64,000 nucleotides of DNA, taken from contig JAISEL010000004.1 of assembly GCA_031264185.1 (NCBI GenBank), forward strand, positions 1-64,000, in the 5' to 3' direction. The notes under the pieces were generated by a model. It was given only the letters and a program-made list of their open reading frames with translations. It was not told the origin of the DNA and made no database searches. The position numbers and the translations under genes were made by a program. Position 1 is the stretch's first letter; each line of letters begins with the position of its first letter. This document shows, piece after piece, positions 2,898 through 36,511 of this stretch. This DNA is from Deltaproteobacteria bacterium. GTDB taxonomy: Bacteria > Desulfobacterota > Desulfarculia > Adiutricales > Adiutricaceae.

Positions 2898-5800
2898 CTA
2901 CTCATCCTCTTCCTGAGCCGAATCTTCACTGCCGGAGGATGAAATTCCTCCGGAGTCCGCTCCTTCCCGAGCCGAATTTTCACTGCGGGAGAGGGAAAAT
3001 CCGCCGGACTCCACAGTCCTGATATCGGCGGAAAAGGAAGCGTCATTGAATTTAGGCTCTGTCATCGAAATCCCATTGGCGTCCACTAAAGCGGCGGCTA
3101 AGGAACTTCTCGGAGGGTCAGCTCTGGAAGGACTCTGGAAGCTGACCTGCAAGATCTGACCTTTAGTCGGAGAAGAGGCGGAATTTATGCTCACCGAACG
3201 GACTATTGCCTCTCGAGCGACTTCGGCCAGACGATTTTCTTCAGCCCTGATGGCTTCCTGGCGTTCATTTTCAATGCGTATGGCCTCAAGGCGTTCATTT
3301 TCAATGCGTATAGCCTCAAGGCGTTCATTCTCAAGGCGTTCATTTTCAATGCGTATGGCCTCAAGGCGTTCATTCTCAAGGCGTTCATTTTCAATGCGTA
3401 TGGCCTCAAGGCGTTCATTCTCAAGGCGTTCATTTTCAATGCGTATAGCCTCAAGACGTTCATTCTCAAGGCGTTCATTTTCAATGCGTATAGCCTCAAG
3501 ACGTTCATTCTCAAGGCGTTCAGCTTCAATGCGCTGGTTGCGTGTGTCGGTCGCACTATCGAAAGTTTGGCCTTCGCGAATATAACCGCCAACTTCACTG
3601 TCAAGAGTGGCTACGTCTACAGCCCTGGAATTTTCAAAAGCAATCGGTTCTCTGTTTCCGCTGTAACCTGCTTCTCCATTTTCCTGATTCCAGTAACTGT
3701 TTGAGATAGACGTACCAACACCAGAATTATTGCCGATAAGACCGCCTTGATTCGTCTGGCCGGTCGTAATTCCTGTGGTGTATGAGTTTTTGATTGTTGT
3801 GGTACCAGTAACAAAACCAACTAATCCTCCAACATTCGTAGTTCCTGACACGCTACCAGTCGAGTAGGACCCGTCTATCATGGAGGTAGAGGCAAAATAT
3901 CCTATCAAGCCGCCTACATCTTGGATGCCATTGACAGTGCCGGTGGCATATGAATTTGAGGTAGTCGCGTATGCGGAACTTCCGATTAAACCGCCTGTGC
4001 GCGATGATGCGTTGGTGGAATAACTCGTAACATCGCCTGTGGCATAAGAATTAAGGATAGTTGAGCCTCTTGTTCCCCCTACGCTACCAAGCAATCCACC
4101 AATAAAACCACGTCCTGATACGTTACCGGTGGCATAACAATTTTCCAAAGTTCCCATAGTTAAAGAACCTATCAACCCGCCAACATAATCAGAAATTTTA
4201 ACGGGATCTTGCTCTTCAATAATGACATTGCCATCCGCATGTGCGTTTTTGATTACAACCGTTGATGTAGCGGCTGCATTAGTAGCGTTTTGTAAAAAGC
4301 CAATTAAACCGCCAACATAATTTAATTGTACGGTTCCAGCCTTAACGGTTACATCGCCTTTGGCGTAGACTCTGTCAAAAGAAAGTTTGTCACTACTTCT
4401 TGTACTGGCAAAGCTAGCATAACCAATCAGCCCTCCTACTCCCTCAGCAGATAATGCGCCAGCGATTTGAACGTTGACTTTTCCCAGCGCGTAAGAATTG
4501 ATTAGAGCAAAAGAGCCGCCGCTTGCAATACTAATAGAACCTATAAGTCCACCAGCCGCTGATTGGGCGTAAACGTCCCCTGTGGCGAAAGAATCCTCAA
4601 TCCTGGAATTTAAGGAACTTACTATAAAGCCAACCAGGCCTCCTACATTTTTATGCTGAGCTGTTTCTTCAATAATAACTGCTCCTGAGGCGTAGGAATT
4701 TAAAATAGCTGGTCCTGATATATAACCAACCAGACCACCTATATTAATGTCCAATTGGGCTATCTTATTAGATATCACTTTTCCGGTTGAGTGAGCGTTG
4801 GTGATTTTAAACGCATTACTGTCAAAGGGGGCAGAAAACGAAGTAATGTAGCCGACTAACCCTCCGGTATTTGAACCTCCGGTCACGTATGCTGAAGAAA
4901 AGACATCAGTAAGGGTAGCCAAAAAGTTTTCATTACCTTCCGTCCTCCCGATCAATCCTCCAATAAACGTATCTCCTGCCGATATCTCTCCGCCTAGGAC
5001 ATAAGCGTTTTTGATGGAAGCTTGATTCAATCCGACCAATGCTCCAACGTTACGTGAAGAACTTCCACCTGTAATTTGCGGGGCGATTATACCGATGTCG
5101 CGGAGATAAGTGTCTACGCCGCCAGTTCCACCAGATACTAAAGTATTAGTATTACCAAAAAGACCAACATTTGATTCTTCTGTAGCAATTACAAGGTTCT
5201 TGACCGTGTGGCCCAAACCGGTAAAAATTCCGCCTTTGTTCAGAATTGTGACTACGGCGGCGTCAAAAATTTGGCTATTTAAATCCAGATCATTAACCAG
5301 GGCGAAACGTCCGTTTTGAGAAGTGGAGCTTATTGCCACCATTTCCTCAAGAGTCCGAATCAGTTCATAGTCAACTCCAGCAATATTTAAGCTGCCGCCG
5401 GTCGGTCCAAAGTTTATGCTGCCGTAAACTCCGCCGCTGGTGTCTTGCTTTGCTACCGGGTAGCCGTCGACTGGGGAGAGGACTGTGCCGCTGAAGGAAG
5501 CTGGAGTCAGAATATTATAATCGTTGCCAAAGATTAAGACGAGTCTGCCGTTGCCATTGACGTTTATAGCGTTATTGATGTTAATGTCATGGTAGGCATC
5601 AAGAGTCAGGACGGAATCAGAAGACCAGGTTATAACGTCGTTGACATTAATGTCGCCATTAACGCCGCCCTTTGTCCCTTCAGAGGATAAGATAATTTGT
5701 CCATTTTTATCCAGTATACTACTTAGGTCCGAACCGGTCATGTCTCCGCCGCTTTTAGCTATGGTGAAGTCGACGGGATCAATCAGCCAGGTTCCGGCTT

Positions 5801-6731
5801 TACCCTTGGGAGCGGCGGTGGTGATGACTGCGGTCTCGGCGATTTTAACGCTGTCGCCGCTGGTCTCAATGAAGCCGCCGTCGCCTTTAGGGGCGGAAGC
5901 GTCCAGAACGCCGTCAACGCCGACTGCGCCGCCGTAAGCGTAGAGCCTTATGTCGCCCTTGAGCTGGCCGACGGTCTGAGCCTGGATCAGGCCGTCATTG
6001 TTGACTCTGGAAGACACCGCATCATTAGCCGCTTTGGCCGTCAGGATCACCTGTCCGCCGTCGGCGTAGACGGCTCTTTTGTTTTCGACCAGAGCGCTGA
6101 CCGCGCCTTTGTCCAGCATGACATTGACTAAGGAGTCTCCGTTGAAGTTCAGGGTGACTTTATCGGCCCCGTTCAAGGAAACCGTCCCCTGCCGGGCCAC
6201 TATCACGCCGCTGTTGATCGCCTGCTCTCCCAGCATGACAACAAAGCCGCCGTCGGGAACGGCAATCCGGCCCATGTTGACAACCTTACCGCCCCGGCCA
6301 TTGAATTCGTACCGCCCGGCCGTAAAGTCGTCATCGCCTATGTCCAAAGTTGAGGCCACCAGTCCGCCGACATTGACGCTGGCCCCCTGGCCGAACAGAA
6401 CTCCGTTGGAATTGACCAGAAAAACCTTTCCGTTGGCGTTAAGGGCCCCGTCAATCACGCTTCTTTCGTTCCCTACTACCCGGTTAAGGGTCATTGACGA
6501 GCGGGAAGGCTGATTGAAGTTGACCGTCTCGTGCCCGGCGATTGAAAATCCCTGCCAGTTGATGCTTGAGTTCGGCGTCTTCTGATTGATGTTAGTGACT
6601 GGGCCTTCCTTGATTATAGTGGCGGTCCCGCTTGCTACTTTACCTCCATAAGGCGCCGCTGCGGCCAGAGAAGGAAAAATGAGAAAGAGCAACATCACGG
6701 AGAAGAAATGGGTTCTCGTGTAAAATAGCAT
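2898..6731 (-). CDS. TpsA-type exoprotein: filamentous-haemagglutinin N-terminal domain, GLUG repeats, coiled-coil repeat tail
   Basis: 1277 residues. A signal peptide (residues 1 to about 25, ending SLAAAA) is followed by a TPS/haemagglutinin activity domain at about 30-260, with the family landmarks [10 protein letters not shown] (57-66) and NSNGVLFG (107-114, a variant of the NPNG motif). A beta-helix-like region follows, then many GLUG-type repeats (GGLIGY, GGLVGF) at about 530-1020. Next come Glu/Arg-rich 15-residue repeats at about 1060-1180 that should form a long charged helix, and a Ser-rich acidic C-terminus. The ATG at 6731 has CAGGAG about 7 nt upstream. It is secreted by TpsB across the outer membrane and probably acts as an adhesin; that role is inferred. 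It overlaps the upstream binding-protein gene by 92 nt, so the two are probably cotranscribed. Confidence 0.88.
3230..3540 (-). repeat. 45-bp tandem repeats coding the charged coil of TpsA
   Basis: About five copies of a 45-nt unit coding [15 protein letters not shown], followed by shortened 30-nt units ([20 protein letters not shown]). Units are nearly identical at DNA level and all multiples of 3, so copy number can vary without breaking the frame. Confidence 0.9.
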
Positions 6732-11919: not shown

Positions 11920-13617
11920 ATGATAGCAAAAATAATAGAACGAAAAGCAGCTAACGATAACTATAAAGCTCTGGCCAACTATATAAATGATGCTAAAAGC
12001 AGAAAGCCCGATGAGGAATCAGGAGAAAAAGTTCTAGTCAGCTGGCATGAGGGATGTAATTTTGACGAATACGATTTGGCCGTAAAAGAGGCTGAAGCTG
12101 TTCAGGCAATGAATACCAGGTCTAAGCGAGCTAAGACTTTTCACTTGGTGATAAGTTTCAGGCCGGAAGATGAGGCGAAACTAACCCCTGAAATTTATAA
12201 GAACATAGAGAAGGAAATAGCTGCGGCATTAGGTTTTGAAAATCATCAGAGGCATTGCGGAGTTCACAAGAACACGAATAATGTACATCTTCATATAGCA
12301 TACAATATGATAAATCCTAAGAAATACAACCGTTACGAACCATATCAGAGCAAAAGAAAGATATTGGAGGTTTGCCGTAATTTAGAAAAAAAATACGGAC
12401 TGACAGTGGATAACGGCATGGAAGCTGCCGATAACTCCAAAGAAAAAGTAAATGCCAAAGCCAAAAATTTAGAAGCCCACCGGCAGGAACAATCTTTTAA
12501 TAGTTATATTTTAAGCAAAAAGGAATATATTTTTAATAAATTAGCTGTATCTGCCAATTGGGCCGAATTTCAAATTCATTTGGCCAGAGTTGGAATTGAG
12601 GCCAAACTTAGAGGCCGAGGTCTGATATTTAAAGATATTAACGGAAAATCAATGATTAAAGGCAGCGATATCGACCGTGGATTAAGCTTAGATAATTTAA
12701 CAAAAAAAATTGGTTATTTTATAGAAAACTTACAAATTAATTCAATTGAAATCAATGTAATAGATAAATATAAGGCGAAACCAATTCATAAAGGCAGTGA
12801 AAACTCTTCGTTATATGAGGAATTCCAAAGACAATTAGCCTACAGAAACGAAAGTTTAGATGACATTAAGAGAACTGAAGCGGAGGCTTACCGGGCTAAC
12901 AGGACAAAATGGTCCGAATTGATGGAAGGGACACGGACAGGCAAAAATTGGCCGGTAATGAATTACCAGCAGCGGCGGCGGCTGGAAGATTGGGCTAAAG
13001 CAAAAGAAGCGGCCGAATTGACGGAAAACCGAAAAAAGCTGGCCGAGGCCCGAAAGAAGATTCGAGAAGAAATTCCTTATACGAGTTGGTCTAAATTTCT
13101 TACATTTAAGGCCGACAATGGAGATGAAGAGGCTCTGGCCTATCTTCGTTCGAAATCCGAAACTGGAAATTACACGCCGGAAAAAATTGAGGCGGTTTCG
13201 ACTGAATTTGACGACAGACGACTAAAAGAATTGGAAATTGATGACAATATAATAAAAAAGCAGGAAGAATTATCTAAAAATGGACTATTAAATAGTAAAC
13301 AAAGAAAAGTTTTAGGCAGTGCGCTTAAAATGGAGCAGGTGATTAATAAGATAAATTTGGACAGCCCAAGCCCCGGCAAGAGAATTAGCTTTAAAAGCGC
13401 TATCTCTAACCGGGGCTCGATTATATATAATTTTAACCAAAAACATTACGGGACTATCAGAGATAACGGTCAGGAAATATTTTTTAGCAATTCAAATGAT
13501 TGTCAAGTTATAGCGGAGAAGTATGCTGCCGCAAGGTGGGGAAAAAATATTGAAGTCCGGGAAAATAAATTTTGCCTGTCAAAAAGTACAAAAGCACAGA
13601 ATTTGACTGTAAATTAA
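11920..13617 (+). CDS. TraI/VirD2-like relaxase (MobP, IncP type)
   Basis: 565 residues. This relaxase cleaves one strand at nic in oriT, stays covalently bound to the 5' end and is delivered by the coupling protein TraG. Motif I is LANYIND with the likely nucleophile Tyr21 (equivalent to Tyr22 of RP4 TraI). Motif II is KTFHLVISF (72-80). Motif III is HQRHCGVHKNTNNVHLHIA (109-127), giving His116, His123 and His125 as metal/acid-base residues; it aligns closely with RP4 TraI. The lysine-rich C-terminal part contains a helical region with WSELMEGTRTGKNWPVMNYQ and a small domain near the end that may bind DNA; its role is unknown. AGGA lies 6 nt before the ATG. It is shorter than RP4 TraI (732 residues), so the tail differs. 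Confidence 0.93.
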   Translation: MIAKIIERKAANDNYKALANYINDAKSRKPDEESGEKVLVSWHEGCNFDEYDLAVKEAEAVQAMNTRSKRAKTFHLVISFRPEDEAKLTPEIYKNIEKEIAAALGFENHQRHCGVHKNTNNVHLHIAYNMINPKKYNRYEPYQSKRKILEVCRNLEKKYGLTVDNGMEAADNSKEKVNAKAKNLEAHRQEQSFNSYILSKKEYIFNKLAVSANWAEFQIHLARVGIEAKLRGRGLIFKDINGKSMIKGSDIDRGLSLDNLTKKIGYFIENLQINSIEINVIDKYKAKPIHKGSENSSLYEEFQRQLAYRNESLDDIKRTEAEAYRANRTKWSELMEGTRTGKNWPVMNYQQRRRLEDWAKAKEAAELTENRKKLAEARKKIREEIPYTSWSKFLTFKADNGDEEALAYLRSKSETGNYTPEKIEAVSTEFDDRRLKELEIDDNIIKKQEELSKNGLLNSKQRKVLGSALKMEQVINKINLDSPSPGKRISFKSAISNRGSIIYNFNQKHYGTIRDNGQEIFFSNSNDCQVIAEKYAAARWGKNIEVRENKFCLSKSTKAQNLTVN

Positions 13618-13630
13618 TTAATGTAATGAC

Positions 13631-13710
13631 GAAAGGCAGTTAACTTCCGGAAGACATTAAGCGATGGGAGTTGCCTGATAATTCAGGTCGAACGGCAATC
13701 CGTTGCATGA
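13631..13710 (+). pseudogene. Remnant of an ankyrin-like repeat gene
   Basis: A short stretch after the relaxase translates, with one stop, as LPEDIKRWELPDNSGRTAIR, which matches one 27-residue unit of the genes downstream. It is probably the oldest, most eroded member of the array. Confidence 0.6.
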
Positions 13711-13787
13711 ATAATGAATTATATAATTTTATTATTATAGTATTATAATATAAAATATAATTTTATTTAAAATCATAAGTATATTTC

Positions 13788-14353
13788 ACGACAAAGGATA
13801 TCAATGAATTTCTAAAAGCGGCTGTGACAGGTCGTCTCCCGAAAGATTTTGACCAATGGAGTCCGGCCGATAAATGGGGCTGGACTGTGGCCCTTGCGGC
13901 TGCGGCTGCTGGCCATCTTCCAGAAAAATTTAACCGGTGGGAACTGGCCGATCAGGATGGCTGGACTGTGCCAATGAAGTAGCAAGAGAAAGACATCTTC
14001 CTCAAAAATTTGATCAGTGGGAGCTGGCTGGTAACGATGGCTGGACTGCGGCCCGTGTGGCGGCGGCAACTGGTCATCTGCCCGAAGACTTTAATCATTG
14101 GGGCTTAACCGATAAAAAAGGCAGGGCAGCGGCCCGTCAGGCGGCAGTCGGAGGACATCTGCCGAAAGATTTTGACAGATGGAATTCGGCTGACAATGGA
14201 GGCCGGACGGCGGCCCATACGGCAGCAATATTCGGGCACCTTCCGGAAAATTTTACCCTATGGAATCTGGCCGATAATGAAGGGCGAATCGTGGCCAATG
14301 CCGCAGCGGAAAACGGTCGCTTGCCGGAAACGCTCCGGAAAAAGCCAGCTTAA
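13788..14353 (+). pseudogene. Ankyrin-like repeat protein, copy A (start lost, frameshifted)
   Basis: Comparison with copy C shows that the expected ATG of the N-terminal TKDI sequence is ACG at 13788. After about two repeats a single base is missing near 13970 (GTGCCAATGAA instead of a GTGGCCCATGAA-like sequence), which shifts the frame; six to seven further units continue in the new frame to the stop at 14353. The repeats follow the pattern FDxWxLADxxGxTVAHxAAxx and then GHLPxx. The last unit ends with PETLRKKPA, as in the intact copies. No operator-like palindrome was found upstream of this copy. Both lesions make a functional product unlikely, although translation from a downstream ATG at 13937 cannot be excluded. 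Confidence 0.8.
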
Positions 14354-14408
14354 AAGGACAATTCATTGGGCCGGTAAAAATTAGGCTGGCTAACCGTTAC
14401 CAAATCTC

Positions 14409-14425
14409 ACACTAAAATTAATGTT
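14409..14425. promoter_or_regulatory. Palindromic promoter/operator module, copy 1
   Basis: ACACTAAAATTAATGTT, an imperfect form of ACACTAAAATTAGTGTT, upstream of ankyrin-like copy B. The -35 region is poorly conserved here. Confidence 0.55.
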
Positions 14426-14530
14426 CAAAAAGTTATTAGTCCATTAAGATTGAATTAACTTATGAAACATAAGATTGATCATGTATTAAGTCAGTTTAAC
14501 TTTTTAATTGCAGATTTATGAGTTTATTTT

Positions 14531-15937
14531 ATGATAAAAAATATATCTGACATTTTAATGGCAGCGAAAACTGGCCAACTTCCGGCAAATTTCGATAAAT
14601 GGAATCTCAAAGTTGACAGCATAAGCCGGACCGTAGCTCATGTAGCTGCCAGAAACGGCCATTTGCCGGATAACTTTGACAAATGGAATCTGGCCGACAA
14701 GAACGGCCGGACCGTGGCCCATGAAGCGGCAGAGTACGGTCATCTTCCGAAAAATTTTGACCAATGGAATCTGGCCGACAAGAACGGCCGGACCGTTGCC
14801 CATGCGGCAGCTGATTTCGGACATCTTCCGAAAAATTTTGACCAGTGGGATTTAGCCGACAATAGAGGCTGGACTGTGGCTCATCAGACAGTCCAAAACA
14901 ACAGATTGCCTGAAGAATTCGGCCGCTGGGAACTGACCGACAACTATGGCTGGACCGCTGCCCATGTGGCGGCAGAGTACGGTCATCTTCCGAAAAATTT
15001 TGACCGATGGCATTTAGCCGACAATAACGGCTGTACTGTGGCCCATATTGCGGCCAGACATGGTCATCTTCCAGAAAACTTTACGCGCTGGGAGCTGGCC
15101 GACAATGACGGCCGGACTGTGGCCCATATTGCGGCCAGACATGGTCATCTTCCAGAAAACTTTACACGCTGGGAGCTGGCCGACAATGACCGCCAAACGG
15201 TGGCCCATGAGGCCGCCCGTGGAGGAAATCTTCCTAAAGACTTTGACCGCTGGGAGCTGGCTGATGATAATGGCTTCACAGTCGCCCATGTGGCGGCCTT
15301 ATACGATAGGAAATTACCTGAAAAATTTGATCGCTGGGATTTGACTGCAAAGGGCGGCTGCACCGTGGCCCATATAGCGGCGAGAGGCGGACATCTGCCT
15401 AAAAGTTTTACAGGCTGGAATTGGACGGATAATAAAGGCAGGACCGTGGCTCATATGGCGGCCATTGGAGGACATCTTCCTGAAAATTTTGAGCATTGGA
15501 ACTGGGCCGACAGCAAAGGCAGGACTGTGGCTCATATGGCGGCCATTGGCGGACATCTTCCTAAAAATTTTGAGCATTGGGAGTGGACCAATAATTTGGG
15601 CTGGACTGTGGCCCATGAGGCGGCAATTCGAGGACATCTGCCGGAAAAATTCAGTCAGTGGAAGCTGGCCGATAAAAAAGGCAGGACAGTGGCCCATGTG
15701 GCAGCGTGGGGAGGTCATCTTCCGAAAAATTTTGACCGCTGGGACCTGGCCGATAACAAAGGCTGGACAGTGGCTCACGAAGCTGCCAGAGAAGGGCATC
15801 TGCCGGACAAGTTTAGCCAGTGGAATCTGGCCGATAATGAAGGCCAAACCGTGGCCCAAGTGGCAGCAAAAAACGGCCGCTTGCCGGAAACACTCCGGAA
15901 AAAGCCAGTTCGAAGAGGAACTTCATTAGGCCGGTAA
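14531..15937 (+). CDS. 27-residue ankyrin-like repeat protein, copy B
   Basis: 468 residues made almost wholly of about 16 tandem units of 27 residues with the consensus NFDxWxLADxxGxTVAH and AAxxGHLPx. The GxTxxHxAAxxGH core is that of an ankyrin helix-turn-helix, but the unit is six residues shorter than the canonical 33, with FDxW in place of the usual second-helix and beta-hairpin part. There is no signal peptide, membrane segment or catalytic domain, so a cytoplasmic or secreted protein-binding scaffold is the simplest reading; function is unknown. The N-terminus (MIKNISDILMAAKTGQLPANF) and C-terminus (LPETLRKKPVRRG) act as caps shared with its paralogues. The start has a weakened ribosome site (TTATGAG where copy C has TTAGGAG). 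A palindromic promoter module lies about 105 nt upstream. Confidence 0.85.
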   Translation: MIKNISDILMAAKTGQLPANFDKWNLKVDSISRTVAHVAARNGHLPDNFDKWNLADKNGRTVAHEAAEYGHLPKNFDQWNLADKNGRTVAHAAADFGHLPKNFDQWDLADNRGWTVAHQTVQNNRLPEEFGRWELTDNYGWTAAHVAAEYGHLPKNFDRWHLADNNGCTVAHIAARHGHLPENFTRWELADNDGRTVAHIAARHGHLPENFTRWELADNDRQTVAHEAARGGNLPKDFDRWELADDNGFTVAHVAALYDRKLPEKFDRWDLTAKGGCTVAHIAARGGHLPKSFTGWNWTDNKGRTVAHMAAIGGHLPENFEHWNWADSKGRTVAHMAAIGGHLPKNFEHWEWTNNLGWTVAHEAAIRGHLPEKFSQWKLADKKGRTVAHVAAWGGHLPKNFDRWDLADNKGWTVAHEAAREGHLPDKFSQWNLADNEGQTVAQVAAKNGRLPETLRKKPVRRGTSLGR

Positions 15938-15995
15938 AAATAGCGATTCTAAAAAAGTAACCAGCAAATTGGCTGGACAGCCATTTTTAAGTGTT

Positions 15996-16012
15996 ACACT
16001 AAAATTAATGTT
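15996..16012. promoter_or_regulatory. Palindromic promoter/operator module, copy 2
   Basis: ACACTAAAATTAATGTT with a TGGACA-like -35 box and TACACT -10 box (15-nt spacer) just before it, upstream of ankyrin-like copy C. The flanking 150 bp are nearly identical to those of copy 4. Confidence 0.6.
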
Positions 16013-16155
16013 CAATAATTTTTTTGTGTTTTAAATTTTTAATTTATAAAAATAAAAGTTCAGCAGTTCGCAAAGGTACGATTTGCCTATGAAACAACAA
16101 ATTAATCTTGTTTCCAGACAGCTCAAATTTTAAGCGCAGATTAGGAGTTAATTTT

Positions 16156-16989
16156 ATGACAAAGGATATTTTTAACATTTTTAAGGCAGCGGAAAATGGC
16201 GAACTTCCGGTAGATTTTGATAATTGGGATTTGGCCGATAAAAACGGCAAGACAGTGGCCCATGTGGCGGCGGAATACGGGCATTTGCCGGAAGGTTTTG
16301 ACCGGTGGGATTTGGCCGATAAAAACGGCAGGACAGTGGCCCATGAAGCGGCCTGGAAAGGCCATCTGCCTGAAAATTTTGATCGCTGGGAACTGGCCGA
16401 TATCTATGGTCGGACTGTTGCCCATACGGCGGCCATAAGTGGGCACCTTCCGGAAAAATTCAACCAGTGGGATTTGGCCGATAAAAATGGCTTTACAGTC
16501 GCCCATGCGGCAGCCCGTGGAGGCTGTCTCCCGAAAAATTTTGAACAATGGGAACTGGCTGATAAAGACGGCAGGACTGTAGCTCACGAAGCGGCGCACA
16601 AGGGATGTTTACCGGAAACTTTTGCTAGGTGGGAATTGGCTGATAACAAAGGCCATACTGTAGCTCATCAGGCAGCGGAAAGCGGACATCTTCCAGAAAA
16701 TTTTAATCGGTGGGACCTGGCCGATGAAGGAGGTTGGACTGTCGCCCATTCAGCGGCCTGGTTCGGTCATCTGCCGAAAGGTTTTAACCGCTGGGAGATA
16801 GCCAATATAAACGGCTGGACAGTGGCCCATGCGGCGGCGGAACATGGGCATCTGCCGGAAGGTTTTGACCGGTGGGATTTGGCCGACAACAATGGGCTAA
16901 CTGTGGCCAACGTAGCGGCGAAAAACGGTCACTTGCCGGAAATACTCCAGAAAAAGCCTGCCCGAAAAGGCCTCTCATTAGGCCTTTAA
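16156..16989 (+). CDS. 27-residue ankyrin-like repeat protein, copy C
   Basis: 277 residues from the ATG at 16156, which has TTAGGAG 8 nt upstream (an in-frame ATG at 16108 has none). It begins MTKDIFNIFKAAENGELPVD and carries nine to ten 27-residue units of the form FDxWxLADKNGxTVAHxAA with GHLPxx, ending LPEILQKKPARKG. Residues identical across units (Trp, Asp, Gly, His, Ala-Ala, Leu-Pro) suggest strong structural constraint, while other positions vary. It is a sister of copy B, with about six fewer units, consistent with unequal recombination. It appears intact and is probably expressed from the promoter module at about 15970-16012. No function can be given beyond likely protein-protein binding. 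Confidence 0.87.
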   Translation: MTKDIFNIFKAAENGELPVDFDNWDLADKNGKTVAHVAAEYGHLPEGFDRWDLADKNGRTVAHEAAWKGHLPENFDRWELADIYGRTVAHTAAISGHLPEKFNQWDLADKNGFTVAHAAARGGCLPKNFEQWELADKDGRTVAHEAAHKGCLPETFARWELADNKGHTVAHQAAESGHLPENFNRWDLADEGGWTVAHSAAWFGHLPKGFNRWEIANINGWTVAHAAAEHGHLPEGFDRWDLADNNGLTVANVAAKNGHLPEILQKKPARKGLSLGL

Positions 16990-17087
16990 TAATAGGCCTT
17001 TAATAATTTAATAATATTGACGCTATGGAAAAATTAACCAGGAAAGAAATTATAAGGCTTTGGGTCGGTAAACAGATTTTTAGCGAT

Positions 17088-17104
17088 ACACTAAAATTAG
17101 TGTT
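17088..17104. promoter_or_regulatory. Palindromic promoter/operator module, copy 3
   Basis: ACACTAAAATTAGTGTT: arms ACACTAA and TTAGTGT around AA. It overlaps the -10 hexamer TACACT. Upstream of truncated copy D. Confidence 0.65.
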
Positions 17105-17143
17105 CAATAATTTTTAAGTGTTTTTGTTTTTTAATTCATATTT

Positions 17144-17405
17144 ATGGCAAAAGATACTTTTAGCTTTTTAAAGGCAGCGGAGGCCCATGTGGTAGCGAGT
17201 CGTAGACAACTTCCGAAAGAATCTAATCGCTGGGGCCTGGCCGATAACAAGGGCTGGACAGTGGCTCACGAAGCTGCTTTAACCAGCGGAATCCAACCGA
17301 CAATGAAGGCCAAACTGGCGCCCAATTGGCAACGTCAAATGGACAGTTGCCGGAAACGTTCCAAAAAAGTCAGTTCGAAGAGGACATTCATTAGGCCGGT
17401 AAAAA
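17144..17405 (+). pseudogene. Ankyrin-like repeat protein, copy D (internally deleted, frameshifted)
   Basis: It starts MAKDTFSFLKAAEAHVVASR and keeps one good unit (NRWGLADNKGWTVAHEAA). Near 17280 it jumps in another frame to what would be the last unit of a full copy (DNEGQTGAQLATSNGQLPET, then a degraded cap). The in-frame reading instead ends in an unrelated basic tail at 17425. It looks like a full gene that lost most repeats by recombination and then drifted. No clear ribosome site precedes the ATG. Confidence 0.75.
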
Positions 17406-17461
17406 TAGCGATTCTAAAAAAGTAACCAGCAAATTGGCTGGACAAACCATTTTTAAGCGTT

Positions 17462-17478
17462 ACACTAAAATTAATGTT
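17462..17478. promoter_or_regulatory. Palindromic promoter/operator module, copy 4
   Basis: ACACTAAAATTAATGTT preceded by TGGACA, a 16-nt spacer and TACACT. It lies upstream of the copy E remnant; the surrounding 150 bp duplicate the copy 2 context. Confidence 0.6.
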
Positions 17479-17569
17479 CAATAATTTTTTTGTGTTTTAA
17501 ATTTTTAATTTATAAAAATAACAGTTCAGCAGCTCGCAAAAGTCCGATTCGCCTGTGAAACAACATAAA

Positions 17570-17690
17570 TATTGCCAAACTGGCGGCTCAGGTAACGGCG
17601 AAGTATGGGCATCTGCCTAAAAGCCTTAACCAAGCAGCAGCAAAAAACTGTAACTTACCGGACACTTTCGGCCCGGAAAAAATAATGACC
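17570..17690 (+). pseudogene. Remnant of ankyrin-like repeat gene, copy E
   Basis: It translates as AKLAAQVTAKYGHLPKSLNQ followed by AAAKNCNLPDTFGPEK, that is, one degraded 27-residue unit and the end cap. There is no start codon context and no intact repeat. Confidence 0.6.
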
Positions 17691-17728: not shown

Positions 17729-17768
17729 TTGACAAAACATTTTCAAGTGGTACACTAAAATTAGTGTT
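17729..17768 (+). promoter_or_regulatory. Promoter with overlapping palindromic operator, upstream of parA
   Basis: TTGACA (17729-17734), a 16-nt spacer, TACACT (17751-17756), and the perfect-arm dyad ACACTAA-AA-TTAGTGT starting at 17752, so the operator covers the -10 box and the likely start site. A bound repressor would block the polymerase. It is the best of the five copies and lies 94 nt before the parA-like start. Confidence 0.7.
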
Positions 17769-17861: not shown

Positions 17862-18467
17862 ATGAGCGAAATTGTGACCTTTATCAATTCCAAGGGCGGC
17901 CAGGGCAAAACCACATTAGCAGTTAATTACGCTTTATATAATAACTGTCACTATCATACTAATGATTATTTAGTTACTTCTGCTCTCTTTAAGGCTTATT
18001 TTCCTGATAATTTTTTTCATGAAATTACTCCGAATATGGTTCAAATGGAAATGGACGGTGAAGTCGATGCGGTTATTGATTTCGGCGGCTATATTGACAA
18101 TAAGATGCCGGACATAATCAAAGCCTCAAAACTTTGCGTAATTCCCATTTATTATCTGTCTCAATCGGATCTTTTAACGTTACACATGATATTGGAACAA
18201 ATAGCTAGAATTAACAACAATATCGCAATAGTAATAAACAATACTAGTCCTTCATTCATAGCTCCATTAAGCGAGGCCCTTAAACGCGACTACCAATATG
18301 AGATCAAGATTATAAAACCCTCTTCTTATATGACTTATCTGGTCAATCATGGGCTGACACCATTTAACATCCGTGATATGAAGGGCGCCGCCAAAAAACC
18401 TCTGGAACAGCTGCGAGCCCAATTGACGGAGCTGTTTTCTTTCATAAACGAGTATCAACCCCACTGA
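17862..18467 (+). CDS. ParA/VirC1-like partition ATPase
   Basis: 201 residues, on the short side for ParA. The deviant Walker A motif is SKGGQGKTTLA (10-20, signature lysine Lys11). A Walker B-like AVIDFGGYID follows near residue 70, shorter than usual because the region between is reduced. Such ATPases bind the nucleoid and segregate plasmids, or, as VirC1, help relaxosome assembly. Small ParA proteins of this kind typically repress their own promoter or work with a small DNA-binding partner. GGAGAG lies before the ATG. It is followed after 12 nt by an unrecognised basic protein that could be that partner. The palindrome over its promoter is a plausible autoregulatory site (inference). Confidence 0.85.
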   Translation: MSEIVTFINSKGGQGKTTLAVNYALYNNCHYHTNDYLVTSALFKAYFPDNFFHEITPNMVQMEMDGEVDAVIDFGGYIDNKMPDIIKASKLCVIPIYYLSQSDLLTLHMILEQIARINNNIAIVINNTSPSFIAPLSEALKRDYQYEIKIIKPSSYMTYLVNHGLTPFNIRDMKGAAKKPLEQLRAQLTELFSFINEYQPH

Positions 18468-18479
18468 GGATTATGTATT

Positions 18480-18869
18480 ATGGCCAAGGGAAATTTTGAC
18501 AATCTGAAAGAGACTGTTAACGGTCAGAATAAGGTCATTGTTTTTGGCGAGGTAACGAACCGGTCTGCCGGGGAAGGTTCGGAAGTAAAAAATGATCATC
18601 CCAGTAGTTTTATCCGGACCGAGGACAAAAAAATTCGGACCTCAAATTCAGGATCCAAAAAAGAAGGCCAAAATAAGGAATTAGCCAAAAACCGGATAAG
18701 CATAGCACTGACTGACAGCGAGCTGGCCAAATTGAATACCGCTATCCGGGAAGACATCAAAACTAAAATTGACCAGGAAGAACATTTAGGTGTTCTGTCT
18801 TTGGGTGGCTGGGCTAAAAGATTTATGTTTTTTGGCATTGAGTCCGAGAAGAGGACCAAAAAACCATAA
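18480..18869 (+). CDS. Unrecognised basic protein, possible ParA partner
   Basis: 129 residues. The first about 75 are polar and probably disordered, rich in Lys, Ser and Asn. The C-terminal part (NRISIALTDSELAKLNTAIR and then LSLGGWAKRFMFFGIES) looks like a beta strand followed by helices, as in ribbon-helix-helix repressors, so DNA binding is possible. It lies 12 nt after parA with GAGG ahead of the ATG, in the usual position of a centromere-binding protein. I do not recognise a named family; the partner role is inferred from position and shape. Confidence 0.6.
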   Translation: MAKGNFDNLKETVNGQNKVIVFGEVTNRSAGEGSEVKNDHPSSFIRTEDKKIRTSNSGSKKEGQNKELAKNRISIALTDSELAKLNTAIREDIKTKIDQEEHLGVLSLGGWAKRFMFFGIESEKRTKKP

Positions 18870-19628: not shown

Positions 19629-22124
19629 GTGGCTAATAGGATTATTGATTATATTTCTGGCATAGAAATTCCTGCTACAATAGAGGAAATAGAAGCTACG
19701 CAAGTTTTTTCCAAAATACTTGTTGAGGATTACCAATATCCAAAATCACATATTCATACGCGTCCTCAATTTAGGGTTAAAGTTAGGCCTTCGGATAAGA
19801 AAAAAGAATACCCAGTGGATATTGCGGTTTTTACCAGCGAAACACACAATGATGATGATTTGTATATCGTTGTTGAGTGCAAAAAGAAAAGCCGTAAAGA
19901 CGGCATTACTCAATTGAAAGACTATCTTCGTCTTTCCCGTGCATCCCTAGGGGTATGGTTCAACGGCAATGAAACGCTCTATTTGCGGAAATTCGAAGTA
20001 AAAGGGCGAATCGAATTCAGAGAAATTCCTAATATTCCTCTTTTCAGCCAGAGAGTCAACGATATAGGTCTGTTCAAAAGGCGTGACCTTCAAAACACAC
20101 ACAACCTTAAACCAATATTCAAAAATATACGGAACTATTTGGCAGCAAATAACACCGGCAAAACGCTGGATATAGAGTTCGTGCCGCAGCTTATCAATAT
20201 GATTTTCTGTAAAATATACGATGAACGGTTTACTAAACCGAATGATATGGTTAGTTTCAGAATAGGCATTGACGAGGACGAAAAAGAAGTAAATAAGCGC
20301 GTACAATCGCTCTTTTCACAGGTCAAAGATAAATATCCGGATGTTTTTGAAGAAGCTGACAAAATCAGTCTTTCGCCTAATTCAATTATTTATATAGTTG
20401 GTGAATTGCAGCAATATTGTCTGATAGACAGCGAACGAGATGTTATTTCAGATGCTTTTGAAACATTCATTTTTCCATCCTTACGTGGAGGTCAAGGACA
20501 ATTCTTCACACCCAGAAATGTTGTAAAATTATTGCTGTCCATCGTAAATCCAAACGAAAAAGATCGCATCATAGATCCTGCATGTGGTTCTGGTGGATTT
20601 CTGGTCGAAGCGATAAGACATGTATGGCGACGCATTGATGAACTTGGAATGAAATTGGAATGGCCGGAAAATGAAATTCAGGCCGAAAAGCAAAATATTG
20701 CAATACGGAACTTTCGAGGCATTGATAAAGAAAATTTTCTAAGCAAAACTACCAAAGCATATATGGCCATACTAGGCGATGGACGCGGTGGAATTTTTTG
20801 TGAAAACAGTCTTGAAAATACAAACAACTGGTCAACAGAAGCGAAGAATGACGTCCAAGATAACAGTTTTGATGTTGTTCTTACTAATCCGCCTTATGGC
20901 GCAAAACTGAAAATTGATGACACAACAATTCTTTCACTTTACTCATTAGGTCACAGGTGGGAAAAAAACAAAAATTCTGATGCTCAAAAAAATACCTCTT
21001 CTTTGTTGGACGCTCAAACTCCGCAAGTCCTGTTTATTGAAAAATGCTTAAAACTTCTAAAAGAGGGTGGTCGGTTAGGCATTGTCGCGCCTGAAAGCAT
21101 GTTTTGCAATCCAAGCCACAAATACATCATGAATTTTGTCGAACATTATGCTAGAATTGATACAATAATTTCAATGCCGGAAGAATTGTTCCAACCCAAT
21201 ACGCACGCAAAAACATGTCTTGTTATGATGACTAAGTACGGAAGAAAAGTTCGAAAGAATTGTGATTACAAAATATTTATGGCCGTAGCCAAAAGATGCG
21301 GTCATGATTCTCGCGGTCTTGAAATACCTTTTGATGACTTGCCGCTTATTGGTGAACGATTTAAGAAATATACCGAAGATGGGACTATTGATTATGATCA
21401 TCTAGGTTTCACCGTAATGAAATCGGAAATAATAGACAATATTTTTCTTCCTATATATTACAATCCAGAAATAAAGCGGCGATTAATGGGCCTGCGTAAA
21501 CATTACAATTTAGTGACGTTCGGCGATTTAGTCAACGATGGATTAATTTCTGTTGCAATCGGTGGTGAAGTGGGCAAACTGTCTTACGGTTCTGGCCAGA
21601 TACCATTTATCCGTACATCTGACATCGCTAATTGGGAGATCAAACTTGACCCAAAGCAAGGAGTAAGCGAAGCTATTTATGAGGCCAATAAAGACAAACA
21701 AGATGTCAGGCCATTGGACATACTAATGGTCAAAGACGGTACATATTTAGTCGGCACTTGTGCGATGATTTCCGAAAATGAGACAAAAATGGTGTATCAA
21801 AGCCATCTGTATAAAATTAGGAGTAACGACCACAATAAAGTCAATCCTTGGCTTCTATTGGCTCTTCTAACTTCGCCTGTTGTCAAACAGCAAATACGCG
21901 CAAAACAATTTACTCAGGACATAATAGATACCCTAGGGAGACGAATTCATGAATTAGTTTTGCCGTTCCCTAAAAACATGGCAAAGAAAGATGAAATCAT
22001 CAATAATGTAAGGTCTGTATTTTCCCGTAGAAAAGAGGCGAAAGAAATTATGAGAAATACTCTGTTGGGGATAACTCCTGTTCATAATTTTAATGAGGAT
22101 GGCAATTTTTTGACGCTAGTATAA
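19629..22124 (+). CDS. Single-chain restriction-modification protein: HsdR-N nuclease, N6-adenine methylase, specificity domain
   Basis: 831 residues starting at GTG, with AGGAGA upstream. Residues 1-130 form an HSDR_N_2-like PD-(D/E)xK nuclease (Asp64 in YPVDIAVF, Glu83 and Lys85 in VVECKKK). A helical linker leads to an HsdM-type methylase with GQFFTPRNVVKLL, the SAM-binding DPACGSGGF (316-324) and the catalytic NPPY (420-423). The C-terminal part from about 620 resembles a type I specificity/target-recognition domain (IPFIRTSDIANWEI, DILMVKDGTYLVG). It would methylate adenine in its target and cut unmethylated DNA, like type IIG enzymes; no separate HsdR helicase or HsdS is encoded here. 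A PglX-like role in another defence system is an alternative but partner genes are missing. It probably protects the element and penalises its loss. Confidence 0.82.
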   Translation: MANRIIDYISGIEIPATIEEIEATQVFSKILVEDYQYPKSHIHTRPQFRVKVRPSDKKKEYPVDIAVFTSETHNDDDLYIVVECKKKSRKDGITQLKDYLRLSRASLGVWFNGNETLYLRKFEVKGRIEFREIPNIPLFSQRVNDIGLFKRRDLQNTHNLKPIFKNIRNYLAANNTGKTLDIEFVPQLINMIFCKIYDERFTKPNDMVSFRIGIDEDEKEVNKRVQSLFSQVKDKYPDVFEEADKISLSPNSIIYIVGELQQYCLIDSERDVISDAFETFIFPSLRGGQGQFFTPRNVVKLLLSIVNPNEKDRIIDPACGSGGFLVEAIRHVWRRIDELGMKLEWPENEIQAEKQNIAIRNFRGIDKENFLSKTTKAYMAILGDGRGGIFCENSLENTNNWSTEAKNDVQDNSFDVVLTNPPYGAKLKIDDTTILSLYSLGHRWEKNKNSDAQKNTSSLLDAQTPQVLFIEKCLKLLKEGGRLGIVAPESMFCNPSHKYIMNFVEHYARIDTIISMPEELFQPNTHAKTCLVMMTKYGRKVRKNCDYKIFMAVAKRCGHDSRGLEIPFDDLPLIGERFKKYTEDGTIDYDHLGFTVMKSEIIDNIFLPIYYNPEIKRRLMGLRKHYNLVTFGDLVNDGLISVAIGGEVGKLSYGSGQIPFIRTSDIANWEIKLDPKQGVSEAIYEANKDKQDVRPLDILMVKDGTYLVGTCAMISENETKMVYQSHLYKIRSNDHNKVNPWLLLALLTSPVVKQQIRAKQFTQDIIDTLGRRIHELVLPFPKNMAKKDEIINNVRSVFSRRKEAKEIMRNTLLGITPVHNFNEDGNFLTLV

Positions 22125-22477: not shown

Positions 22478-25400
22478 TTAAAAGCTGAATTCAAGACCAA
22501 TAGCGGCGTTGTGGCTGACATAACCGCTGGCAGCATCAAGATCATAATTCACAAAAACATTGAGATTATCCATAACTTTGACCTGCACACCCGCTCCCGC
22601 CTGGAATTTGGGGCTGCTGGCTTTAATCCCATTAATAGTCATCCGACTGTCATAACCGATTAAACCGACATTCAATTTGCTGTCCGGTTTTTTAGCGGTC
22701 ATGACTACGCCAAGTCTCAGTTCCGGTAAAATTTGAGCCTCTCCGACACTTAAATCGGCGTTGACTTTGACTTGAACCGGAATCTCTAAAGTTTTATCCT
22801 TCTTATTTTCAAAAAAGTTTCGTATGGCAAAAGGAGAGCCTGAAAATTTTTCTGAAAAAGCTTTTTGGTGAGCTGACAAATACCGAAGGCCTACAGAAGG
22901 CGTAATCCGGAAGTCTCCGTAAGCTAAAACCAATCCGGTCCGGACCCCGAATTGCCAATAGCTGAGGTCAAAATTGGCCAGTTTTGAGCCGCCGTAGGCC
23001 TGAATTTTTGATTCATTTTTTGATTTTCCATAATCGACTGCGGCATCCAGGAAGAAGCCGTTGTCAAAGATATAGCTGCCGTAAAGGCCAAAATCAATGG
23101 AATCTACATCTATAGAAGCATAGCCTGCATTGCTTTTTACCTCTCCAGAAGATAAAGATCCATTGAAGCCCAAAGTCAAACTCGGTACAGATTCAACCAT
23201 ATAGTCATAGCCTAAGTTGATGCCCCGTCCGTTGTAATCAAAACCGTAAACCGAGTTATGATTTTTTTGTTTTGACCAGGAACCGATAAAATTAACCCAA
23301 AGACGGGAATTAAAATCAGAATCACCGAAAGAAGGCGGATCAGATAAAGTAATAGCACCGCGAAGGCCATCCAGCCGACTGTAGACAGCTTTCTGGACTT
23401 TAGAGGCAAAGTCCTCAGTAGGATAAAAGGCGTTAAGCAGCAGTTCCCCGGAATTCTGGACTAAAAATCTTTTAAAAATATCCGTATTGCCAGAATTTAC
23501 AGCTAACTGATAGTGATAATTCCAAGCCTTAAAAATTCCCTCAAATAAAGGCCATAGCGGACCATTATCTTCAAATTTGCTCTTATCTTCTTTGGCTTGA
23601 TATTCCAAAGCTGTAATTAAATTAACTAATTTATGGCCGTTTCCAGAAGAATTTTTGATTATATTATCAAACCATGTGTCATTGGAATTATTTCCGCTGC
23701 CGTTACCAATTCCAGCAAGCAAAAAGTTATCAATATAAATGGATTTACCTTCATTGCCCAAAATTAAAGTAAAGAATTCGGAAAAAAATGAATCAAAATA
23801 ATTTGCTACAGAAGTTCCGGCAGTGATAAGAGGCTGAGAATCATCCGGCAAATTGTTAAAGTTAGCATCAATTTTTACCGACCCATTAGTGGTTAATGAC
23901 CCAGTGACAGTCAGTCGGCCTTGGCTGCCGGTCTGAGATAAATCAGAGGCTGATTTAGAAATGACCATGACAGCCTGGTCACCAAAAATAAAATCACCGT
24001 CAACCAAAAGCTGATGGGCGGCCAGGGAAAGTCTGCCGCCTACAGTCAAACCATTAGAGCCAGCAAAAGAAATTTTTGAATGTCCGGTTAAAGAAATTTT
24101 TGATAATCTGTCAAGAATAAAGCCCTGATTAAAATGCAAATCAGTATTTTCATTAAAATAAAAATTACTGTTAGTCGATTTGATATCATTATCAGACATA
24201 ATTGACTGTCCGGTAACGGTAAAATAATTATCACTGGAATCAAAACTTAATTCCGAAGCGCTGATATTGCCATTGAACCTATTGGCTCCGCCGGTCACAT
24301 TAACTGAACCGCTGGCCAGCAAATCGTCATTAAAAGTATTTTTGCCCTTCTTAATGTCCAAATCATTGACATCAGTCAGTCCGTTGATCGCGGTAACAGA
24401 ATTATTTATAAGGAAGTAATCCCGAGAAGTGATATCGCCTTCGACTTGAACTTGACCGGCCTGAAAGCAGATGTCATTGGACATCAGACTATTTTCATAG
24501 ATATTGTTGCCGCCAGTCACATTGATAGCGGCGGAGGCTTCGACAGACTCTTTAAAAATATTATTGCCGCCGGTTAGCTGAAGAGTTCCGACTTCGACTA
24601 TTCCGTCCACGGCATTGTCTCCGCCTTCCAAATTAAGGGTCAAAGCCGACACATTGGCATAGGAATTGTTGCCGCCGGTCACGCTGACCTGGCCGCTGGC
24701 CGTCAGATTGCCCTTGAAAGTATTTTCGCCCTTCCGGATATCCAAATCATTAGCAGTCGTCAGCCCATTGATGGCTGTAACCGTGCTGTTCATCAAAAAA
24801 TAGCCGGTTGATATGACATCACCCAGAACCTCGGCCTCGTCGGCCTGAAGATAAATATCCGCCGCCTTGAGGCTTTTTCCGTAGGCATTAGTTCCGCCGG
24901 TCACATTGATGGCGGCAGAGGCTTCGATATCCTCTTTAAAGGTATTATTGCCGCCGGCCAGATGCAGGGTGCCTACCTCGGCTGTTCCGTCTACGGCATT
25001 GTCCCCGCCTTCCAAACTGAAGGCCGAAGCCGAAACATTGGCATAGGAATTGTTTCCGCCGGTCACGCTGACCAGGCCGCTGGCTGTCAAGCTGCCCTTA
25101 AAAGCATTTTCGCCCTTCCGGATATCCAAGTCATTGGCAGTCGTCAGCCCGTTGATGACTGTAGCGGTGCTGTTAACCAAAAAATAGCCGGTTGACAGGA
25201 CATCGCCAAGAACCTCGGTCTCACCGGCCTGAAGATAAATGTCTGCGGCCTTAAGGCTTTTTTCGTAGGCATTAGTTCCGCCGGTCACACTGATGGCGGC
25301 AGAGGCTTCGATATCCTCTTTAAAGGTGTTATTGCCGCCGGCCAGCTGAAGGGTGCCGACCTCGGCTGTTCCTTCTACGGCATTGTTTCCGCCTTCCAAA

Positions 25401-27364
25401 CTGAAGGCCGAAGCCGAAACATTGGCGTAGGAATTGTTTCCGCCGGTCACATTGACCAGGCCGCTGGCTGTCAGGCTGCCCTTAAAAGCATTCTCGCCCT
25501 TCCGGATATCCAAGTCATCAGCGGTCGTCGGCCCGTTGACGGTCACAGCGGCGCTGCTGGCCAGGAAATAGGCTGCTGAAGCGATGCTTCCGTCAATTTC
25601 ATTAGTCCCGCCCCGGAAATAGATGTTTTCAGCGGAAAGGCTGCTTTTATAGGCATTAAGGCCGTCAGTCACATTCACCGTATTGGCGGCTTCTACAGCC
25701 TCATTAAAGGTGTTATTGCCGCCGGCCAGATGAAGAGCGCCAATGTCGGCGGTTCCGGCCACGGTGTTGCTTCCGCCTTCAAAAATAAGGGTCTCCGCTG
25801 AAATGTTTACATAGGAGTTACTGCCGCCACAGGCACTGATCAGGCCATCGGCCAAGGTCAAATTTCCAAAGGAGTTTCCGCCGGAGATCAGATAAATCTT
25901 GGAGGAATCGGCCAGTTCAATCGTTTTATCAGTGCTGAAGCCGGCGCCGCTGATACTAAAAGTCGCATTGGAACCGGAGATGGCCGTTCCCGAATAGTCA
26001 AACTTTTGATTCGAACCGTTAAAAGTATTGGCGCTATCCTTGAAAACCGCGTTGTCGCCGGTAATATTCCCGGAAAACGTATTATTTCCCCCGGAAACGT
26101 CAAAGCTTACCGCTGCCGTTACATTGTCAATGAAAACATTGGTTCCTCCGGAAATTTTCAAGGAATCGGCCTCGGCACTCCCGTAAACTGAATTCAGGCC
26201 GTCTGAAATATTGACCAGTTCCACTTCAACAATGTTATTGAAAGCATTATTGCCGCCGGACAGACTGATTCCGCCCACCGCCGCGCCAAGAATATCTTTG
26301 ACAAAAGCATTGCTGCCGCCGGATACATCAACGGAAGCTTTAACTCCGCTGATATTGTCAATAGTATTGCTGCCGCCACTTATCTTAATTTGATTATCAG
26401 TGACTATAAGGTCTAGACTATTGATGCCGCCGGATATATCCACTAAAGCGCCGCTGCCGTTAATGGTCTCAATGTTGTTATTTCCATCGGAAATTTTGAT
26501 CGAATTATTGGCAAAAATCATTTCAAATGAATTACTGCCTCCGGCGATATCAACTAAAACCTCGCTGCCGCTGACAATTCCTATGCTGTTGCTGCCGTCA
26601 GCTATTCGGACAGCATTATTAGTGATGATGCTGTCTAAATAATTATTCCCGCCTGTCATACTGACGAAAGCGCCACTGCCGTTGACAAGACTAATGACAT
26701 TGTCGCCGTCGGATATCTTGACGGAACTGTTAGCATTAATGACTCCAATATTATTGCGTCCGCCGGACAATTCTACCGATCCAATATTTACAATAGTCAA
26801 ATCAGCTATGTTGTTTATTATGCCGCCACTTATCTTTATATCTCCGCTGACCTTAAAGTCACCGTCAAAATTATTTGTCCCGCCGGAGATGATCAGATCA
26901 TTTGCTACGGTTATTGTCGCCGGATATCCGCTTCCGCCGTTTATGGCATTCCGGCCGTCATTCACTGACATGCTGGCCAGAGTCAGAGCTGAGGCCTGAT
27001 CGGAAATAAAAGAATTGATGCCTCCGTACAGCCGCAGTTCGCCTGTACTGACTGTCAGGCCGGTTTGACCGGAAAATAAAGCTGTCCCGCCGTAAATGTA
27101 CATATTATTGGCAGCTGCCGAAGCCGCGCCTGCTGAACTGACGGTCAAAGTCCCGCCGTACGCTATCAAATCACCGGACACGCTCAAAGGTTCGACAGTT
27201 TCATCATCGGAAGAAGTCATCACCAAATTTTGAGCCGAAGCCGCCGGTAAAGCCAGGACCACTGCCAGCCAGGCGGCCAATATCGCTCCTGAAACGGCCG
27301 TTTTAAAGGAAATAATTGATTGGATTGACTTTCGGCCCTTTGAAGGAATTGCAGGCAGCCTCAT
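22478..27364 (-). CDS. Type Va autotransporter with GGNN beta-helix repeats
   Basis: 1628 residues. ATG at 27364 is preferred over the GTG nine nt upstream because AAGGTGG then sits 5 nt ahead. A long signal sequence (residues 1 to about 45) has a basic front and ends ALPAASA. The passenger, to about residue 1250, is built of short repeats with the core SGGxNxF / TGGNNxY, alternating with hydrophobic strands, which predicts a right-handed beta-helix. It includes four near-identical 128-residue blocks. The C-terminal about 280 residues are an autotransporter barrel: alternating strands and a final phenylalanine (AIGLEFSF). Few cysteines, as usual. It would display or release an adhesin-like passenger; no protease or other catalytic motif was seen. 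The upstream leader resembles that of the next gene. Confidence 0.9.
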   Translation of the reverse strand: MRLPAIPSKGRKSIQSIISFKTAVSGAILAAWLAVVLALPAASAQNLVMTSSDDETVEPLSVSGDLIAYGGTLTVSSAGAASAAANNMYIYGGTALFSGQTGLTVSTGELRLYGGINSFISDQASALTLASMSVNDGRNAINGGSGYPATITVANDLIISGGTNNFDGDFKVSGDIKISGGIINNIADLTIVNIGSVELSGGRNNIGVINANSSVKISDGDNVISLVNGSGAFVSMTGGNNYLDSIITNNAVRIADGSNSIGIVSGSEVLVDIAGGSNSFEMIFANNSIKISDGNNNIETINGSGALVDISGGINSLDLIVTDNQIKISGGSNTIDNISGVKASVDVSGGSNAFVKDILGAAVGGISLSGGNNAFNNIVEVELVNISDGLNSVYGSAEADSLKISGGTNVFIDNVTAAVSFDVSGGNNTFSGNITGDNAVFKDSANTFNGSNQKFDYSGTAISGSNATFSISGAGFSTDKTIELADSSKIYLISGGNSFGNLTLADGLISACGGSNSYVNISAETLIFEGGSNTVAGTADIGALHLAGGNNTFNEAVEAANTVNVTDGLNAYKSSLSAENIYFRGGTNEIDGSIASAAYFLASSAAVTVNGPTTADDLDIRKGENAFKGSLTASGLVNVTGGNNSYANVSASAFSLEGGNNAVEGTAEVGTLQLAGGNNTFKEDIEASAAISVTGGTNAYEKSLKAADIYLQAGETEVLGDVLSTGYFLVNSTATVINGLTTANDLDIRKGENAFKGSLTASGLVSVTGGNNSYANVSASAFSLEGGDNAVDGTAEVGTLHLAGGNNTFKEDIEASAAINVTGGTNAYGKSLKAADIYLQADEAEVLGDVISTGYFLMNSTVTAINGLTTANDLDIRKGENTFKGNLTASGQVSVTGGNNSYANVSALTLNLEGGDNAVDGIVEVGTLQLTGGNNIFKESVEASAAINVTGGNNIYENSLMSNDICFQAGQVQVEGDITSRDYFLINNSVTAINGLTDVNDLDIKKGKNTFNDDLLASGSVNVTGGANRFNGNISASELSFDSSDNYFTVTGQSIMSDNDIKSTNSNFYFNENTDLHFNQGFILDRLSKISLTGHSKISFAGSNGLTVGGRLSLAAHQLLVDGDFIFGDQAVMVISKSASDLSQTGSQGRLTVTGSLTTNGSVKIDANFNNLPDDSQPLITAGTSVANYFDSFFSEFFTLILGNEGKSIYIDNFLLAGIGNGSGNNSNDTWFDNIIKNSSGNGHKLVNLITALEYQAKEDKSKFEDNGPLWPLFEGIFKAWNYHYQLAVNSGNTDIFKRFLVQNSGELLLNAFYPTEDFASKVQKAVYSRLDGLRGAITLSDPPSFGDSDFNSRLWVNFIGSWSKQKNHNSVYGFDYNGRGINLGYDYMVESVPSLTLGFNGSLSSGEVKSNAGYASIDVDSIDFGLYGSYIFDNGFFLDAAVDYGKSKNESKIQAYGGSKLANFDLSYWQFGVRTGLVLAYGDFRITPSVGLRYLSAHQKAFSEKFSGSPFAIRNFFENKKDKTLEIPVQVKVNADLSVGEAQILPELRLGVVMTAKKPDSKLNVGLIGYDSRMTINGIKASSPKFQAGAGVQVKVMDNLNVFVNYDLDAASGYVSHNAAIGLEFSF
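24350..25700 (-). repeat. 384-bp tandem repeats in the autotransporter passenger
   Basis: Four blocks spaced 384 nt apart, recognisable by the recurring LDIRKGENAFKGSLTASG (and LDIKKGKNTF in the most divergent copy) near 24353, 24737, 25121 and 25505. DNA identity is high in the middle copies. In-frame recombination could add or remove blocks. Confidence 0.85.
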
Positions 27365-36476: not shown

Positions 36477-36511
36477 TCACTACTATATAACAGGGGGAGG
36501 ATAAGGAATAA

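Follow-up and report, generated by a model that had tools for sequence, protein, structure and literature searches.

A tandem array of intact and decayed genes for 27-residue ankyrin-like repeats beside a partition-like cassette on a conjugative element

The window analysed here is a 64-kb stretch of DNA from an insect-gut deltaproteobacterium (64,000 nucleotides; contig JAISEL010000004.1 of assembly GCA_031264185.1), on which six related copies of an ankyrin-like repeat (ank) gene, designated units A to F, follow one another head to tail, with a MobP relaxase gene on one side and a two-gene cassette encoding a ParA-like ATPase on the other. Units C and D are intact, and the favoured explanation, to which a probability of about 0.6 is assigned, is that they encode cytoplasmic, variable protein-binding solenoids that undergo birth and death and are co-regulated with this putative partition cassette. 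Cytoplasmic protein binding is the sole function for which their anatomy argues, and it is from this anatomy that we infer binding. An initial annotation of this DNA had placed the array on a conjugative element, and this reading is right, since the window encodes, in addition to the relaxase, homologues of TraG, TrbI, TrbG/CagX, VirB8, TrbL and TrbE (trb/VirB-type).

Repeat unit, predicted fold and variable face

The strict repeat of 27 residues, six short of ankyrin, that had been described at the outset was borne out: the spacing in C and D is 27, with 28 occurring twice, both times in C, and when a unit profile built from the two proteins was run, as had been proposed, related loci retained the period, with 27-residue spacing in 600 of about 650 cases. 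The class thus departs from the canonical ankyrin period of about 33 residues, and a literature search on 27-residue ankyrin repeats returned no relevant report. C passes the Pfam cut-offs for PF13637 (104.9 bits, cut-off 22.7) and PF12796 (87.7, cut-off 27.3), D does likewise, and the Ank_4 match in C reaches 1.6e-30, while NCBIfam matches such as MTB12 and MoaD-like, lying far under cut-off, were rejected as artefacts of repeat composition. Compared with these Pfam families, consensus ankyrins and designed ankyrin repeat proteins (DARPins), the unit shares the stack of hairpin and helix A, its GxTVAHxAAxxGH resembling GxTPLHLAAxxGH, but differs in length, in a near-invariant LPxxFxxW and in the absence of the second helix from the predicted fold. 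The sequence match in the PDB is a four-repeat consensus ankyrin, aligned with a six-residue gap directly after GHL, the site of the ankyrin second helix. Over 591 units the framework is nearly fixed at L1, P2, F5, W8, G15, A19, H20, A22 and A23.

AlphaFold2 modelled D from a 41-row alignment (pLDDT 95.5, pTM 0.89) and C from its single sequence (pLDDT 89.5), and both predictions place one helix in each repeat, of seven to eight residues in D, instead of the canonical two antiparallel helices. Modelling of C, which the initial annotation had suggested as a means of recognising a normal ankyrin stack, hence returned no such stack. The top Foldseek matches, at a root-mean-square deviation of 4.4-4.6, were all ankyrins, among them espin1 at TMq 0.71-0.73 and, for C, ankyrin-1 and AnkB. 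Because the models have a single helix, ankyrins come first in Foldseek and the six-residue gap follows GHL, the 27-residue unit is, as judged from sequence and model, an ankyrin derivative that appears to have lost its second helix. Of the distinct solenoid postulated earlier, a predicted variant class without the second helix stands, whereas an unrelated solenoid is excluded, as the nearest solved folds and the Pfam matches are ankyrins.

Across the 591 units the highest variability was observed at positions 13, 25, 27, 24, 14 and 16, and the entropy amounts to 3.3-3.8 bits at positions 13, 14, 16, 24 and 25 as compared to 0.4-0.9 bits at most framework positions. The DARPin design of Binz et al. 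from 2003 reportedly randomised positions 2, 3, 5, 13 and 14. In the register that we take to apply, with G15-x-T-V-A-H equated to ankyrin G4-x-T-P-L-H, these correspond to unit positions 13, 14, 16, 24 and 25, and it is because the most variable surface positions match those of designed ankyrin binders that C and D are probably variable binding proteins. At the DARPin-equivalent positions together with position 11, 55 independent close pairs gave a ratio of non-synonymous to synonymous polymorphism (pN/pS) of 1.15 (95% confidence interval 0.82-1.69). The remaining variable surface positions gave 0.71 (0.53-1.00) and the core 0.19 (0.14-0.25), so that constraint on the repeat is weakest at the counterpart of the binding face; positive selection is not proven. 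A first value of about 2 at variable positions was dropped as proof of such selection, since it became 1.15 once pairs were independent and position 11 was included. The earlier claim of a variable protein holds for the part examined here, namely variability across repeats and genes.

Array decay and the promoter block shared with the ParA-like cassette

All six head-to-tail units of the initial annotation were recovered by translation and self-comparison (Table 1), with an eroded scrap first and a final scrap last, a frameshifted copy in which ACG replaces ATG, two intact genes credited with about 16 and 9-10 repeats and now counted at 16 and 9, and an internally deleted copy. Unit A reads ATGACGAAAGGC... 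up to a frame break and then LPEDIKRWELPDNSGRTA. Unit B starts with ACG ACA AAG GAT as against ATG ACA AAG GAT in D, its first frame stopping at TAG 13980 and the remainder running in another frame to 14353, while the remnant of F reads AKLAAQVTAKYGHLPKSLN...NCNLPDTFGPEK and is preceded by a promoter block resembling the one in front of D. Both C and D end in the basic tail RKKPVRRGTSLGR. Self-matches of the array have E-values from 1e-176 to 1e-6, well past chance, and adjacent repeats within C reach a DNA identity of 83%. In the region of unit E, positions 17170-17565 share 81.6% identity with 15677-16099, the latter taking in the 3' flank of C and the promoter region of D. Since the similarity of E continues through this flank into the D promoter region, whole units including the promoter were duplicated, and this duplicate stretch together with units A to F supports the tandem duplication and decay claimed earlier. 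The source is one metagenome-style assembly, a kind in which tandem arrays can be collapsed or broken, and a close relaxase, sought in relatives for a between-strain comparison of the array, was not found among them.

What is added to the initial account is that a promoter and palindrome block was duplicated along with the units. The motif ACACTAAAATTA[AG]TGTTCAA occurs at five sites, against 0.02 expected, upstream of C, D, E, F and the ParA-like gene; elsewhere in the host genome (4.4 Mb, 166 contigs) there is a single site with two mismatches, and a search for the palindrome in relatives did not find it. In two of the five copies its core, ACACTAA-AA-TTAGTGT, forms an inverted repeat without mismatch, while the other three have one change, and the palindrome DNA, ACACTAAAATTAGTGT, is a candidate operator. 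The 88-bp blocks upstream of E and of the ParA-like gene are 77.5% identical, the -35 boxes at the ank units being less consensus-like than that at the ParA-like gene. Because C to F bear the promoter and palindrome block of the ParA-like gene, C and D probably share their expression control with the putative partition cassette of the element. In this cassette a P-loop and weak ParA matches were observed, and the small partner protein, for which no Pfam match was obtained, resembles a ribbon-helix-helix regulator by eye only; the two-gene layout recurs on a plasmid of the cockroach isolate Smac51, a protein of which is 45% identical to the ParA-like protein. Related ParA cassettes on this plasmid and in a further genome (G006) have TTGACA promoters but lack this palindrome, and ank genes were not seen alongside, which suggests that the ank units acquired their promoter from the putative partition cassette and not the other way round. 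In the array, gene copies arise and decay beside this cassette, and the promoter block moves with them.

Under the proposed mechanism, C and D would be cytoplasmic all-repeat binders built of the 27-residue ankyrin-derived unit, in which a short LPxxFxxW turn would stand in for the second ankyrin helix and the units would stack as a curved solenoid on the fixed framework. A variable, DARPin-like binding face would be made up of the tips of the hairpins and the side of the single helix that is exposed (positions 13, 14, 16, 24 and 25); its specificity could shift via duplication of 81-bp units, via point changes at the variable positions and via promoter-plus-gene duplication, the last leaving live and dead copies adjacent. 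If true, such a single-helix ankyrin would be shorter than is usual for ankyrin-type scaffolds and could be put to use as a compact scaffold for binders.

Table 1. Positions of the array units, palindromes and adjoining genes within the window
Feature	Position	Strand	Description
MobP relaxase bordering the array	11920..13617	+	NF041893 3e-109
Unit A	13626..13712	+	N-terminal scrap of ank gene; frame MTKGS*LPEDIKRWELPDNSGRTAIR
Unit B	13788..14353	+	pseudogene; ACG replaces ATG; net -1 frameshift near 13970; two-frame translation
Palindrome upstream of C	14409..14424	+	ACACTAAAATTAATGT
Unit C	14531..15937	+	intact; 468 aa; 16 repeats at a 27-residue period
Palindrome upstream of D	15996..16011	+	
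Unit D	16156..16989	+	intact; 277 aa; 9 repeats plus caps
Palindrome upstream of E	17088..17103	+	perfect ACACTAA-AA-TTAGTGT
Unit E	17144..17425	+	internal deletion, frame broken; N-terminus fused to 3' part of C-like gene
Palindrome upstream of F	17462..17477	+	
Unit F	about 17562..17690	+	terminal scrap; third-frame reading
Promoter of ParA-like gene	17729..17756	+	sigma-70-like TTGACA-16-TACACT; palindrome overlaps -10 box
Palindrome upstream of ParA-like gene	17752..17767	+	perfect
ParA-like ATPase	17862..18467	+	201 aa; NCBIfam ParA_partition 1.4e-7, below cut-off
Small partner gene	18480..18869	+	C-terminal half ribbon-helix-helix-like by eye only

Distribution, candidate targets and alternatives

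The repeat class was found in termite-gut Desulfobacterota, where it is hugely expanded, in Acidithiobacillus ferrivorans, Deferribacter desulfuricans and Desulfacinum hydrothermale, and in a tailed phage. At the phylum level it is rare (4 of 395 genomes), but members of the family of the window commonly have it, and some genera have it in very large numbers: a single genome can hold as many as 146 first-look candidates, and frames reach 2038 residues, in a termite sampling that is uneven and dominated by one termite sample. A period of 27 is also found in A. ferrivorans, in tandem genes of a Deferribacter megaplasmid and on a contig that encodes a tail sheath along with other phage proteins, single-protein scans of viral contigs having given one phage contig. 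TVAH repeats of D. desulfuricans pDF308 share the period and the tandem gene array on a plasmid, and the Deferribacter group matches the main class in a gapless profile alignment of 208 columns with a probability of 99.9%, though without LPxxFxxW: pDF308 has WITEDKEILKLAD where the class here has LPxxFxxWxLAD, and a C-terminal region of its own. The megaplasmid genes (L049:10090-16228) are annotated as hypothetical, and one as a histidine triad protein. At another locus (L046:12139-13191) 27-residue repeats are fused to an ASCH domain with more short ank genes adjacent, and at L063:262-14554 seven small ank genes lie on an element with a Prim-Pol primase, a VRR nuclease and a tyrosine integrase.

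As for what C and D might bind, eukaryotic proteins of gut flagellates or the insect and bacterial or mobile-element proteins (defence, counter-defence, element competition) are equally plausible, each at somewhat less than even odds, and any other kind of target is unlikely. One narrower version of the favoured explanation, which is tentative and less likely than not, holds that C and D, as cargo of the conjugative element, are delivered as effectors that act on eukaryotic proteins of the gut flagellates or of the insect. Relatives include gut Deltaproteobacteria, several of lower-termite origin, and many expanded loci come from metagenome-assembled genomes of lower termites, hosts that house flagellates (Glyptotermes Gx485, Roisinitermes Roe453 and Neotermes Nm470; PMC11707648), which together with the high candidate numbers and the basic tail of C and D would fit delivery to a eukaryote. 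A precedent exists in the Orientia Rickettsiales amplified genetic element (RAGE), likewise a conjugative element with many ankyrin genes, intact and decayed, including Ank effectors (PMC10732058); it differs in residing in different bacteria, and eukaryote-directed secretion, reported for some Orientia Anks, is a mere possibility here. Ankyrin genes are also numerous in Wolbachia, which like the bacteria here is associated with arthropods (PMC3563639), whereas the genomes considered here, mostly of 3-7 Mb, are not reduced, and their repeat class is another. Delivery is made less plausible by the absence of a signal peptide and of a conserved tail across the examined relatives, by members of the class in A. 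ferrivorans, D. desulfuricans, D. hydrothermale and the tailed phage, for which no eukaryotic host is known, and by the weight of a single termite sample. The idea of a conserved basic tail serving secretion was given up, since basic tails vary within the family.

Equally tentative is the other narrower version, in which the variable binders neutralise defence systems or rival elements inside the bacterium. It agrees with the location of the array on a conjugative element and of relatives on a tailed-phage contig and a megaplasmid, with the proximity of ank genes to integrase, primase and VRR nuclease at L063 and to phage-like replication genes at L044, and with the promoter block of the ParA-like cassette borne by the ank units; however, PADLOC gave no match for C or D, and other copies adjoin metabolic genes. 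A more sweeping idea, also unlikely as it stands, is that single-helix ankyrins of bacteria, plasmids and phages constitute a natural DARPin-like system, a fast-diversifying binder repertoire wired here to a partition operator and expanded in termite-gut bacteria, where a genome would hold dozens of stretches or more. If the variable face does bind partners, the very high copy numbers in gut bacteria of lower termites would indicate a so far unstudied layer of interaction between bacteria and flagellates or among elements.

Several points weigh against the favoured explanation: neighbour genes vary from locus to locus, broken units outnumber intact ones (four against two of six), and the pN/pS of 1.15 does not significantly exceed 1, so that the variable positions can be accounted for by relaxed constraint just as well as by diversifying selection. 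The broken units and the ratio near 1 would be expected if these were ordinary ankyrin-derived genes drifting neutrally by repeat slippage, with no selected binding role and the array being lost. This is nonetheless improbable given the core pN/pS of 0.19, the two long intact frames and a framework conserved across distant phyla. Immunity arrays of polymorphic toxins consist of tandem, variable, cytoplasmic repeat proteins, which the array resembles, yet the proposal that C and D are such proteins is highly improbable and was dropped, since no toxin domain lies beside the array or consistently beside the examined relatives, whose neighbours include just single cases of Fic and ADP-ribosylglycohydrolase.

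Other genes in the window

Near the ank array lies a gene for a large DNA methylase whose C-terminal part is specificity-like (19629-22124), and on the same contig an HNH nuclease, a CD-NTase (PADLOC oligonucleotide cyclase, 8.4e-122) and a 2TM effector make up a compact cluster resembling a cyclic-oligonucleotide-based antiphage signalling system (36114-37890). Three large genes contain repeats of other kinds: a large autotransporter-like protein with an internal tandem repeat of 384 bp (22478-27373), an inverse-autotransporter/intimin-like protein with many Ig-like repeats, recognised by eye (27986-33481), and a filamentous-haemagglutinin-like gene, also recognised by eye (2898-6731), whose coiled repeat region derives from a 45-bp tandem repeat at 3285-3533 with 97% matches.
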